A stretch of 44,083 nt of DNA from an uncultured Phycisphaeraceae bacterium (GTDB taxonomy: Bacteria; Planctomycetota; Phycisphaerae; Phycisphaerales; UBA1924): the NCBI GenBank assembly GCA_937899905.1, contig CALCCF010000078.1, forward strand, positions 1 through 44,083. Direction: 5' to 3'. Shown here piece after piece: positions 25,727 to 29,211 of the stretch. Every line of letters starts with the position of its first letter. The first letter of the stretch is position 1. Made by a program: the position numbers and the translations under genes. Below the pieces are notes generated by a model. The model worked only from the letters and a program-made list of their open reading frames with translations, ran no database searches and was not told the origin of the DNA.

Positions 25727-26328
25727 GGCGTGCCCACTTCCGCCGTGCGCAGCCACGAATCGACAAGCTTCGCGCCGTATGCGCCGGACAACTCCGGGTG
25801 GAACTGGCACGCCAGCACCCCGCCTCGGCGCATCGCCGCGACGAACCGGCCGCCATGCTCGCTCCACGAGACGTCCCAGCCTTCGGGGGCCTGCGTCACC
25901 CGGTACGTATTGGCGAAGTACGCGTATCCGCCGTCGTCTGCGGCACCCGCGGGCACGAGATTCCAGCCAAACTGCGGCCGCACAACCGAGTTTGGAAACT
26001 CCGTGACGCCGCCGGCACAAACGCCGAGCCCTGTCACTCCCGGCGACTCTTCGGACTGCTCGAACAGCATCTGCAACCCGAGGCACACGCACAGCGTCGG
26101 CCGGCCCTGGGCAACACGCTCACGAATCGGCTCGCGGAGCCCGCACTCGTCCAGCAGGCCCATGCCCGCGCCAAACGCACCAACGCCCGGCAGCACGAGG
26201 GCGTCCGCCTCGATCGCATCCTCGACATCGCAGGTCAGCCGGGCTTGCAGGCCAAGCCGCTCGAACAGGGCGCGGACCGAAGCGTTGTTCGCCACGCTCG
26301 TATCGATGATTGCGACTTCACGCGGCAT
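25720..26328 (-). CDS. hisH: Imidazole glycerol phosphate synthase, glutamine amidotransferase subunit
   Basis: A 202-residue class I amidotransferase that supplies ammonia to HisF. The nucleophile elbow is LCVCLGLQMLFE (Cys in CLGLQ, with Val-Cys before it instead of the usual Gly-Ile). The catalytic His-Glu pair is in LACQFHPELSG. The oxyanion-side motif is ALVLPGVGAFGAGM, and PQFGWN is conserved. The ATG at 26328 overlaps the upstream stop as TGATG; a GTG at 26331 is the alternative. Confidence 0.94.
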   Translation of the reverse strand: MPREVAIIDTSVANNASVRALFERLGLQARLTCDVEDAIEADALVLPGVGAFGAGMGLLDECGLREPIRERVAQGRPTLCVCLGLQMLFEQSEESPGVTGLGVCAGGVTEFPNSVVRPQFGWNLVPAGAADDGGYAYFANTYRVTQAPEGWDVSWSEHGGRFVAAMRRGGVLACQFHPELSGAYGAKLVDSWLRTAEVGTPC

Positions 26329-28028
26329 CACAGCACCCCCTTCGTCGAGGGGGCCTCGCCGTCCGGCCGAACAACGCGGACTGCCCGGCCGAGCGCGAGG
26401 GCGAGGGCCTTGAACCCAGCCTCGGCCTTGTGGTGGTCGTTCTCGCCGCGCACGGTGTCCAGGTGGATGGCCGCTCGCAGCCGATCGGCCAACGAGCGCA
26501 CGAAGTGCTCGATGTTCTCGGCGGCCACATCACCGACGAGATCTCGCTTGAGATCGAGGACCACGTGCGCGCTTGGCCGACCGGAGAGATCAACGACCGC
26601 CCGGCACAGCGCGTCGTCGAGCGGCGCGTATGCCTCGGCGAATCGAGCGATGCCCGCACGCCGGCCCAGCGCATCATCGATCGCGCTCCCGAGGACCAAA
26701 GCGCAGTCCTCGACCGTGTGGTGGTCGTCAACCTCAAGATCGCCCCGGCACGCCAGCTCGATGTCGATGCTCGAGTGACGCGCGAGCGCCGTCAGCATGT
26801 GGTCGAGGAAGCCCAGCCCCGTGCGAACCTCAGAAGCTCCCGTGCCGTCCAGTGCCACCGCGCAGCGGATGCTCGTCTCCTTGGTTGAGCGTGTTGCCGA
26901 ACCTCGGCGGCTACCAGACGGCACACGCCACTCTGGCATCGGCCCGCGGCCCATGGCATACTCGAGTGCATCGAGCAAGTAGGCGAAGGACTTGGGATCA
27001 CCAGGCAACGAGACGCGCAGCGCATCCTCCAAACCAGCACGTGCGACAAAGCGGCGAACCGCCACGCCGGCGTCGGCCAGCCGCGTCCACACCGTCTCGG
27101 CATCTTCGAATCGCGCGAGCACGAAGTTGGCAGATGAAGCTTGCGGACGGCCGCCGCAAGACTGAACTCGGTCGATCAGATCTTCGCACTCCGCCCGCAC
27201 ACGCTCGATATACGCGGAGTTGTCGATGGCCAGCGCCTCTCGCGCGACGGCGAGGGCTGGCCCCGACACCGGGTATGGCCCACCGACCGATCGCATCCAG
27301 CCGGCGACGGCCTCTGAAGCGATCGCGTACCCCACGCGTAATCCCGCAAGCCCGAACGCCTTCGAGAACGTGCGCACCACCACCACATTGTCGCACTCGA
27401 GCAGAGCGGTCGTCGGATCTTCGTCTGCGAACTCGACGTACGCAAGGTCGGCAAGCAGTACGGCCCCAAATCGCTGCGCCGCGTCGGCCAGCCGCAGCAG
27501 ATCATCCGACCCCACGGTCGCACCCGTCGGGTTGCATGGGCTCACGACCGCGACCACGCCAACACGCTCGTCGATGCGCTCGATCATTGCATCGACGTCG
27601 AGCGCACCCTCGATCCAGCGCACCGTCGAGACCTCTCCGCCCGACAGCCGAGCCGCCCGCGGGATCATCTCGAACACCGGATCGTGCGTCAGCAAGCCGC
27701 GCCCAGGCTCGATCATCGCGCGGCAGATCCGGTCGATCGCCTCATCGCCTCCATTGGTCACGACGACGCGCAATGGGTCAACGCCGAACTGCTGCGCAAT
27801 GTCCCGCTCGAGATCGCTCGCGACCGGGTACCGCCGCACGGCCTCGCTCAACACCCCGTCGAGCGCCAGCCGAAGATCGGACGAGGGCTCGGGCCCTTCG
27901 TTGCTATCCAGTCGGAGCACGATCGACGGGGCGTACACCGGGGCCGCGTACGCACGGGCCGACACCACCCGTTCCGAGGGGCGGACACCAGATTGAGTCT
28001 TCTCAGCGGTTGCCATCTCGCCTCCCAT
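26328..28028 (-). CDS. HisC-HisB fusion: histidinol-phosphate aminotransferase and IGP dehydratase
   Basis: A 566-residue two-domain protein. Residues to about 365 are a PLP aminotransferase of the HisC family: LRLDSNEGPEPS, VVTNGGDEAIDRICRAM, VSPCNPTGATV and the PLP lysine in RTFSKAFGLAGLRVGY (Lys223). The usual DEAY is replaced by DLAY. From about residue 385 an IGP dehydratase (HisB) follows: TGLGFLDHMLTALARHS, GDLEVDDHHTVEDCAL, PLDDALCRAVVDLSGRP and NDHHKAEAGFKALALAL, with the His and Glu metal ligands present. It would join step 6 (dehydratase) to step 7 (transaminase). A short linker (about 370-385) is rich in Arg and Ser. The start overlaps the hisG stop as TGATG; an ATG at 28016, four bases after GGAGG, is an alternative. 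Confidence 0.93.
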   Translation of the reverse strand: MGGEMATAEKTQSGVRPSERVVSARAYAAPVYAPSIVLRLDSNEGPEPSSDLRLALDGVLSEAVRRYPVASDLERDIAQQFGVDPLRVVVTNGGDEAIDRICRAMIEPGRGLLTHDPVFEMIPRAARLSGGEVSTVRWIEGALDVDAMIERIDERVGVVAVVSPCNPTGATVGSDDLLRLADAAQRFGAVLLADLAYVEFADEDPTTALLECDNVVVVRTFSKAFGLAGLRVGYAIASEAVAGWMRSVGGPYPVSGPALAVAREALAIDNSAYIERVRAECEDLIDRVQSCGGRPQASSANFVLARFEDAETVWTRLADAGVAVRRFVARAGLEDALRVSLPGDPKSFAYLLDALEYAMGRGPMPEWRVPSGSRRGSATRSTKETSIRCAVALDGTGASEVRTGLGFLDHMLTALARHSSIDIELACRGDLEVDDHHTVEDCALVLGSAIDDALGRRAGIARFAEAYAPLDDALCRAVVDLSGRPSAHVVLDLKRDLVGDVAAENIEHFVRSLADRLRAAIHLDTVRGENDHHKAEAGFKALALALGRAVRVVRPDGEAPSTKGVL

Positions 28029-28975
28029 CACGCCACGATCTGCTGTGGTGTGGTCACGATCACGTCCGTGCCGCCCGCAGTGCGGAGGGCACCGATCACC
28101 GACGCCAATTGCTCACGCGGCACGGCCGCCTTCACCGCGTAACCCTCTTGACCGTGCAGCGTCGAAACCGTCGGCTGCCGCATGCACGGCAGCGCGGCGA
28201 CCACGGCGTCCAGCCGATCGGCCGACACATTCACCTCGATGAGCGCCCGCTTGCGGGCCTGCAGCACCGAATCGAGTAAGACGGCAAAGTCCTCGATACG
28301 CGTCCGCTTCGACGGGTCGTCCATCGCGGCGACCGACGCATACAGCCGCGTCGACGAGCGCATCACCTCGCCGCACACGGCCAGCCCATTGGCGGCGAGC
28401 GTCGCCCCGGTCGCCACGTTGTCGACGATCGCGTCCGCATCCTCCGGCGGCAGCACCTCGGTCGCGCCATACGAACGCAACACCTGGGCCTCGATGCCCC
28501 GCTCTTCGATCCACCGGCGTGTCAGCGCGACGTACTCGCTGGCGATCACCAGCGGTCGTCCGTCAATCCCTCGCGCCGGCAGCGAGCCGCCGTCGAGCGC
28601 GCCGACTGGCGCCGCAACGACGAGGCGAACCGGATCGAGGCCGGTGTCCAGCAACTCGACGGGCCGCGAGCCAGGCTCTCCCGCGGCGATGTCTTCCTCG
28701 ACCCAATCCGCGCCCGCGAATCCGAAGTCACGCCGACCGATGGCGAGCATCTCCACGATCGCACGCGGCTTGAGCAGTTTGCACTCCACGCCGTTGAGGC
28801 CGAGCTTTGGGCGATACCCACGCTCGCTGCGTCCAACGCTGACGCCCGCAGCACGAATGAGGTCCAGAACGCCATCGTGCATGCGTCCCTTGGGCAGCGC
28901 TAAGTGCAGGTCACCAACGCTCGTGGCGCTTTGCGATTCGGCTTGCGGCTCGATGTCTGTCGAAGCGGATGTCAC
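28028..28975 (-). CDS. hisG: ATP phosphoribosyltransferase, long form
   Basis: A 315-residue enzyme for the first and feedback-inhibited step of histidine synthesis. Motifs: LHLALPKGRMHDGVLDLI, GFAGADWVEED, DPVRLVVAAP, the PRPP-binding region EDADAIVDNVATGATLAANG and a C-terminal regulatory domain (LPCMRQPTVSTLHGQEGYAV and QLASVIGALRTAGGTDVIV). The C-terminal domain marks the long, HisZ-independent form that binds histidine. The GTG at 28975 is chosen because GGGAGG lies five bases upstream. A longer frame begins at GTG 29017 without a comparable site. It is the first structural gene of the operon, after the leader region at 29034-29211. Confidence 0.95.
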   Translation of the reverse strand: MTSASTDIEPQAESQSATSVGDLHLALPKGRMHDGVLDLIRAAGVSVGRSERGYRPKLGLNGVECKLLKPRAIVEMLAIGRRDFGFAGADWVEEDIAAGEPGSRPVELLDTGLDPVRLVVAAPVGALDGGSLPARGIDGRPLVIASEYVALTRRWIEERGIEAQVLRSYGATEVLPPEDADAIVDNVATGATLAANGLAVCGEVMRSSTRLYASVAAMDDPSKRTRIEDFAVLLDSVLQARKRALIEVNVSADRLDAVVAALPCMRQPTVSTLHGQEGYAVKAAVPREQLASVIGALRTAGGTDVIVTTPQQIVA

Positions 28976-29033: not shown

Positions 29034-29140
29034 GCCCCAGACCGCTAATCGCCGGTTCGGCCGGCGTCTGGTCTCTGGGGCTCGCTCGTTCAGCCCGTCA
29101 GCACACCACAACGCCAAAGCCCCGGTCAACGGGGTGGCTT
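29034..29140 (-). promoter_or_regulatory. Putative histidine attenuator (alternative RNA hairpins)
   Basis: On the minus strand four segments can pair in exclusive ways. Segment 1 CCCCG (29134-29130) pairs with segment 2 CGGGG (29124-29120). Segment 2 GGGGC (29123-29119) can instead pair with segment 3 GCCCC (29081-29077). Segment 3 GCCCCAGA(GA)CC can pair with segment 4 GGTCTGGGGC (29043-29034), a 10-bp stem with a two-base bulge that encloses a further 6-bp hairpin CGCCGG/CCGGCG (29066-29050). The His codons of the leader ORF directly precede segment 1. A ribosome stalled there would block 1 and favour 2:3, freeing transcription. No U-run follows 3:4, so termination or sequestration is not proven. 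Confidence 0.6.
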
Positions 29141-29175
29141 GAATGGGTGTGATGGTGCAATGAGCTGGCTTGCAT
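29098..29175 (-). CDS. hisL: Histidine operon leader peptide
   Basis: A 25-codon ORF upstream of hisG, translating MQASSLHHHTHSSHP and ending VVVC before TGA. Five of residues 7-14 are histidine (codons CAC, CAT, CAC, CAT, CAC at 29157-29134), in a region where no other gene lies. This is the hallmark of an attenuation leader peptide: slow decoding of His codons reports shortage of charged tRNA-His. The ATG lies seven bases after a possible -10 box and GGAG abuts it with no spacing, so translation may begin on a leaderless mRNA. It is too short to be found by ordinary ORF searches. Confidence 0.7.
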   Translation of the reverse strand: MQASSLHHHTHSSHPVDRGFGVVVC

Positions 29176-29182
29176 CTCCAAA

Positions 29183-29211
29183 TCAATACCGAGGCTGGGG
29201 CCCTGGGTCAA
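29183..29211 (-). promoter_or_regulatory. Putative promoter of the his operon
   Basis: On the minus strand TTGACC (29211-29206) and TATTGA (29188-29183) are separated by 17 bases. The -35 matches consensus at five of six positions, the -10 at three. Transcription would start near 29176-29175, at the leader ATG. Confidence 0.45.

Follow-up and report, generated by a model that had tools for sequence, protein, structure and literature searches.

A candidate histidine attenuator upstream of hisG, probably ribosome-mediated and with a leader peptide predicted to be leaderless

Described histidine leaders and the hisG locus

Histidine attenuators have been described in gammaproteobacteria and in some Firmicutes, the latter being the Bacillus cereus group, Peptostreptococcaceae with Lutispora, and Erysipelotrichales, with hisS/hisZ paralogues in bacilli, as far as the available portions of the two sources go (PMC9413887, PMC2965389). 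The locus that we describe here lies in a window of 44,083 nucleotides (the whole stretch of DNA that was analyzed). It resembles the enterobacterial and gammaproteobacterial hisL leader (Rfam RF00514) in that a His-rich leader precedes hisG, that its hairpins exclude one another, and that a stalled ribosome is predicted to select the antiterminator. The RF00514 model gave no match in the window region at E values up to 10, and none in 20 related loci at the gathering score. The Firmicutes His leaders, in the available part of PMC9413887, likewise combine a short leader carrying several His codons and a terminator/antiterminator arrangement with the lack of an RF00514 match. T-box riboswitches from Rfam were not found in the window at the gathering threshold, where only a tRNA was matched, nor in the leader region at E values up to 10.

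Leaderless leader peptides have been reported for leuL, trpL, ilvL, and others in Streptomyces (PMC8079986) and for trpL in Sinorhizobium meliloti (PMC10117765). In the parts of these papers at hand, the attenuator transcript begins at the leader start codon, as is predicted here, and some of the Streptomyces leaderless attenuators also resemble our locus in lacking a U-run (PMC8079986). None of the eight Streptomyces leaders treated in that part is a His leader, whereas here the layout is conserved before hisG in many genomes. Neither PMC9413887 nor PMC2965389 contains the string "planctomycet" in its main text, and no report of a planctomycete leader peptide or of planctomycete attenuation was found in the literature searched, which was limited to titles and the beginnings of abstracts and covered few subscription journals. 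PMC4833913, in its accessible part, mentions Planctomycetes in connection with leader-gene distances. As far as we could find, a histidine attenuator at this locus would belong to a bacterial group from which no such sensors have been described, adding one more lineage to the short list of those that have them. The locus is, in our view, best explained as a histidine attenuator of the ribosome-mediated kind whose leader peptide, ahead of hisG, is predicted to be leaderless, with a probability of roughly 0.88.

The leader peptide ORF, MQASSLHHHTHSSHPVDRGFGVVVC, is read from 29098..29175 on the minus strand, and its identification rests on translation and conservation. As the first-pass annotation of this DNA had claimed, it holds five His codons: among its 25 codons these are residues 7, 8, 9, 11, and 14. 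The putative sensor codons 7-14 cover 29134..29157 (-), a role that is based on translation and on folding with the ribosome stalled at given codons, and the ATG lies 200 nt upstream of hisG on the minus strand. Just upstream is the promoter-like TTGACC-N17-TATTGA (29183..29211, -) that had been pointed out before, with TTGACC at 29211-29206, a 17-nt spacer, and TATTGA at 29188-29183, and 7 nt separate the end of the -10 element from the leader ATG. It is present in the sequence and is the best promoter in the unbiased test described below. A strict consensus scan called neither a promoter nor a terminator in the leader region of the window, because TATTGA does not end in the T that the consensus demands and the tail is without T. 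The four pairing segments proposed in the first-pass annotation are all present as well (CCCCG at 29134-29130, CGGGGC at 29124-29119, GCCCCAGA at 29081-29074, and TCTGGGGC at 29041-29034), and its observation at 29034-29211 is confirmed as genuine.

The first gene of the his cluster is hisG (28028..28975, -; Pfam PF01634 and PF08029); the GTG at 28975 is probably its start codon, and GGGAGG at 28986-28981 its Shine-Dalgarno sequence. By their domain matches, the ORFs behind hisG encode an aminotransferase-IGPD (HisC-HisB) fusion, a glutamine amidotransferase (HisH-like), and a His_biosynth protein (HisF-like). The apparent fusion of hisC and hisB is a single ORF of 567 aa at 26328-28031 (-), in which Aminotran_1_2 is followed by IGPD.

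Conservation of the His-rich ORF and its promoter spacing

The first-pass annotation had named a His-rich ORF upstream of hisG in relatives as a check of its reading, and this ORF is conserved. We gathered hisG upstream regions from genomes found by searching the class, family, and phylum for HisG (one genome standing for one species), together with named records, four of which have a HisG of 56-58% identity while the other ten are archaeal, at 29-34%. The main set consisted of loci with a HisG identity of at least 43% over the fetched part of hisG, and the ORF was sought within 330 nt. Excluded were L001, a duplicate of L002; L051, L121, and L122, whose fetched stretch contained no HisG match; L079 and L109, which came without upstream sequence; and the archaeal loci L073-L082. 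At 88 of the 99 loci with this HisG type, the window included, the upstream region has at least four His per eight codons. Before one locus (L050) was recovered, the counts, again including the window, were 87 of 98 loci at this threshold and 81 of 98 with at least five His per eight codons; the antisense strands of the 98 loci gave three and none, respectively, and 490 shuffles gave five and none. The loci share ancestry and the shuffle comparisons ignore kinship, so the significance of the latter is overstated. Across the leaders, His is encoded by 312 CAT and 248 CAC codons. Runs of CAT and CAC read as Ile, Ser, Thr, or Pro in other frames, and it might be asked whether the ORF is merely a chance run of CAY codons or an untranslated DNA repeat. 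The signal is specific to one frame, with five or more residues per eight codons at 83% of loci for His, 5% for Ile, and 10% for Ser (no other amino acid exceeds 10%), and no ORF of this His density arose in 5000 dinucleotide shuffles of the region in the window. We therefore give this reading next to no credence.

The identity threshold removed four loci with clear leaders (L106, L107, L112, and L117) and four without one (L042, L044, L048, and L045, the four-His cluster of L045 lying in a long unrelated frame); with the filter off, 92 of 107 loci have at least four His per eight codons. Within the phylum but outside the class, 14 of 20 loci reach this level in a slightly wider stretch, once L002 is set aside together with L231, which duplicates the position of L035. 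None of the 39 sampled loci with a divergent HisG does so. These are a sample of the class matches, drawn from 40 stretches of which L164 (10 bases from the wrong place) was discarded, and hisG is not necessarily the first gene there.

Leader length and non-His residues vary widely among loci. His-rich peptides are able to bind metals, and the ORF could in principle encode a functional, metal-binding micropeptide that has nothing to do with attenuation. Such a role is hard to reconcile with this wide variation, with a position upstream of hisG (the sole place searched), with the absence of such an ORF before the 39 divergent hisG genes sampled, and with His codons that sit where a stall flips the predicted RNA fold (see below); we judge it very improbable.

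The 11 loci of the 99 without a four-His cluster are L021, L066, L089, L099, L043, L046, L047, L049, L071, L072, and L108, with L071 and L108 having three His per eight codons. In L021, L066, L089, and L099, which belong to one genus, promoter and hairpin are kept along with a GTG start, and the His codons are scattered (VTKALHQLQHCMKP... in L021). These leaders are possibly a weakened or altered sensor.

The attenuator reading also makes use of where the leader starts. In our promoter test, we took the best promoter ahead of the first His codon and then sought in-frame starts, with no preference for a fitting spacing. A TTGAC-type promoter was found at 79 of the 88 loci with a His cluster, and at 73 of the 88, the window among them, an in-frame start lies 4-11 nt past the -10 element of such a promoter (63 ATG, 9 GTG, and 1 TTG), compared with 15 of 790 shuffles. 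Thus, the placement of the leader ATG at or adjoining the expected transcription start, noted in the first-pass annotation, is a conserved layout, for which no mapped 5' end exists. From this spacing we predict that the leader is translated leaderless, with the 5' end of the transcript at the start codon. In this predicted start the leader differs from hisL, and Shine-Dalgarno-like 4-mers precede its start at only 4 of 93 loci (all loci with a cluster, identity filter off).

Competing stems and a simulated ribosome

Downstream of the leader stop codon lies the hairpin core CGCCGG-CCGAA-CCGGCG (29050..29066, -), which is conserved in relatives and is followed by a T run at most related loci. 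Its arms, at 29066-29061 and 29055-29050, are enclosed in the window by an outer stem, GCCCCAGA / TCTGGGGC (29034..29081, -), supported by sequence and RNA folding. It was this outer stem that had been annotated as the 3:4 hairpin; its arms are present, but the homologous 3:4 hairpin is the inner one, which had not been listed. Folding and comparison across the family further define segment 2 (29092..29115, -), the end of the leader ORF and the bases just past it, and segment 3 (29063..29082, -), which overlaps the 5' side of the hairpin and is the predicted antiterminator partner of segment 2 under an upstream stall. For 2:3, the main pairing predicted in the window joins GGCGUUgUGGU...GGGCU with AGCCC...ACCAGACGCC and corresponds to the pairing in relatives. 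The earlier proposal for 2:3, a CGGGGC:GCCCC-like pairing, is seen for a stall at His14 but is not this main pairing.

Competing stems are also conserved in relatives, which was another check named at the outset: there are compensatory pairs in the hairpin, and the alternative pairing is recovered. The hairpins were chosen as the best-scoring at each locus, so their arms pair by construction and the pair types alone are informative. Among 95 loci (L050 and L108 excluded), core position -2 is A-T in 41 and G-C in 39, a compensatory change, and positions -1, +1, and +5 show a few two-sided changes. The end of the leader ORF is an alternative partner for the 5' arm of the hairpin. In transcripts ending before the 3' arm (97 loci), the mean fraction of the 5' arm paired upstream is 0.79 with the ribosome stalled and 0.35 with it at the stop codon, and 0.57 when the spacer is shuffled. 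Each of 56 of the 97 loci exceeds at least 19 of 20 shuffles. Pairing is greater in the stalled than in the stop state at all 97 loci, a result that is partly built in, because a stall leaves more RNA free.

In full transcripts of 98 loci (L045, excluded afterwards, is still among them), the mean probability of the hairpin is 0.97 without a ribosome, 0.995 with the ribosome at the stop codon, and 0.56 with it at the most disruptive His codon. At 33 of the 98, the probability is below 0.3 at some His codon and yet above 0.7 at the stop, whereas the shuffle means fall below 0.3 at none. When no ribosome is present, the partner of segment 2 is the upstream leader, with a mean probability above 0.5 at 89 of 96 loci, and this may well be one cause of the hairpin being the default state. 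Pairing of segment 2 with the His codons themselves exceeds 0.25 at 78 of the 96, and in this respect, too, there is a difference from hisL, the His codons at these loci partly acting as segment 1.

Each leader with three or more His was then scanned codon by codon with a simulated ribosome, using equilibrium folding (96 loci). In the window, the probability of the hairpin is at most 0.09 at codons 6-16 and at least 0.93 at codons 1-4 and from codon 18 to the stop, with 0.69 at codon 5 and 0.80 at codon 17 at the edges. It is about 0.99 without a ribosome or with the ribosome at the stop, and 0.00-0.04, 0.05-0.49, or 0.07-0.56 with the ribosome in the His codons, depending on the transcript end chosen. 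Of 600 spacer shuffles, 69 had equally low stalls, among which 22 formed the hairpin at the stop as well; only two reproduced the three-state pattern of the window (stall, stop, and no ribosome). When transcripts are extended to hisG, the hairpin of the window is replaced by other pairing in the folding. Among the 96 loci, 46 switch, with a codon at which the hairpin drops below 0.5. In 41 of the 46, the codon with the strongest effect falls within the His span; on average, this span accounts for 41% of the codons of these loci. At the other 50, the hairpin never falls below 0.5 at any codon in equilibrium folding. Of the features expected of a ribosome-mediated amino acid attenuator, a short ORF rich in codons for the product of the operon is present ahead of it, and hairpins that are exclusive in a ribosome-dependent manner are seen in the window in predicted folding only, and at 46 of 96 loci. 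Taken over the family, the ORF, the promoter spacing, the hairpin, and the alternative pairing are conserved, and the predicted folding depends on the codon of the stall.

Control through the accessibility of the hisG Shine-Dalgarno was considered and dropped, since folding gave no clear switch between the stalled and stop states.

The terminating step, coupling, and a trp leader in the same genome

The first-pass annotation had inferred that the his operon is attenuated, an inference that the conserved ORF, the stems, and the stall-dependent predicted fold support. There are no expression data, and leaderless initiation, ribosome stalling, and transcription termination all remain inferences. 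We propose the following scheme. Judging from the promoter spacing, transcription would start at or a few bases from the leader start codon, and a ribosome would initiate on the 5'-terminal AUG and read the His-rich leader as RNA polymerase advances. With ample charged His-tRNA, the ribosome would reach the stop codon and mask segment 2, leaving segment 3 free for the 3:4 hairpin, whose formation would stop expression of the his operon. In the absence of translation, segment 2 would be bound by the upstream leader, at most loci partly by the His codons, and the hairpin would form as well. Under histidine shortage, a stall in the His codons might allow segment 2 to pair with segment 3, which would block the hairpin and permit expression of hisG and the genes that follow.

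How the hairpin would stop expression in the window is the least certain part of this scheme. The claim that the 3:4 hairpin has no U-run holds for the window: neither the inner nor the outer hairpin is followed by one, no T run longer than two follows the hairpin, and the tail reads ATTAGCGGTC. The criterion for an intrinsic terminator (GC hairpin plus U-run) is not met in the window, and the strict scan found none. The window is in a minority in this regard, as the longest T run at the 3' end of the hairpin is at least four at 66 of 97 loci and three or fewer at 31, including the window. Rho-dependent attenuators and those that sequester a ribosome-binding site need no U-run terminator. Given the missing U-run, termination may be U-less or Rho-assisted, or control may be exerted at another level.

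One such level is translation, the leader ribosome governing access to the hisG ribosome-binding site rather than termination, at least in the window with its U-less hairpin. Attenuators that sequester the ribosome-binding site are known (PMC9413887, in the part available), and the GGGAGG of hisG is predicted to be unpaired with a probability of only about 0.2-0.3. We nonetheless find this unlikely, because the predicted accessibility of that site is nearly equal with the ribosome stalled or at the stop, the hairpin lies 47 nt upstream of it, and the homologous hairpin carries a T run of four or more at most loci, as counted above. Alternatively, the attenuator might have decayed, the species of the window having kept the leader and lost the terminator so that hisG is now constitutive, as the tail and the silent strict scan would allow. 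Against it stand the strong predicted switch, with a stall range that coincides with the His codons, and the long outer stem, which, we infer, would not be expected of a decaying element; we doubt this reading. Both possibilities concern the last step in the window and overlap with the best explanation; the odds that we assign do not sum to one.

Ribosome-steered attenuation requires that transcription and translation be coupled. Were such attenuators a feature of the whole phylum (see below), ribosomes would trail RNA polymerase closely enough to steer it in what are probably the Planctomycetota, a phylum for which a separation of the two processes has been claimed. Spatial separation of transcription and translation was reported in Gemmata (Gottshall et al. 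2014, as cited in the available parts of PMC6212462 and PMC6554331), and in the abstract of PMC6554331 the compartment claim is termed outdated. Because its sensor codons occupy the stall sites that flip the predicted fold, the conserved leader would offer a simple genetic test of coupling in a relative that can be cultivated, provided that the phylum assignment holds. This assignment is likely rather than proven; PF07596, a family rich in planctomycetes, is found in the genome of the window and in none of 14 controls. Leaderless initiation is combined here with a hairpin without a U-run, and both steps are testable.

Beyond the single locus, we think it probable, with less assurance than for the attenuator itself, that there is a phylum-scale family of leaderless His attenuators, with a trp counterpart in the genus of the window. 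Unlike the enterobacterial leader, members of this family would use their His codons as segment 1 as well. In the genome of the window and four congeners, trpE is preceded by a Trp-rich leader with GWWWRW or GWLWRW, which in the former is found on contig C109 (locus L189), about 130-250 nt upstream of the trpE domain match. A CATAAT -10 element ends 7-8 nt ahead of the leader ATG, and downstream there are GC-rich hairpins, with competing stems predicted and no clear U-run. The leader occurs in five of the six genomes of the genus with a trpE match (L182, L185, L186, L188, and L189), the exception being G258; G046, also of this genus, has no trpE match and is outside this count, and no shuffle control was made for the trp leaders. 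In the 20 other loci scanned, W clusters appeared only in L178 and L197, in frames not counted as leaders.

A search of the same genome for the leaderless-leader pattern returned 11 matches, compared with 2 in a reversed control. Five of these matches lie at the start of ORFs 10-33 codons long, in none of which a run of one amino acid is apparent. We judge the pattern too strict, as neither the his leader, with TATTGA, nor the trp leader, with CATAAT, is captured by it. Leaders of leuA and ilvB had to be left aside in this genome, LeuA_dimer and TIGR00118 (acetolactate synthase large subunit) having no match in it; in the 21 genomes searched, LeuA_dimer is matched in 3 and TIGR00118 in 9, 3 of these above the cut-off. 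Leucine or branched-chain synthesis may thus be missing or divergent in this organism. The assembly also contains two 16S rRNA genes (contigs C97 and C31; L242 and L244) that are only about 77% identical, and one of these contigs is possibly a contaminant.
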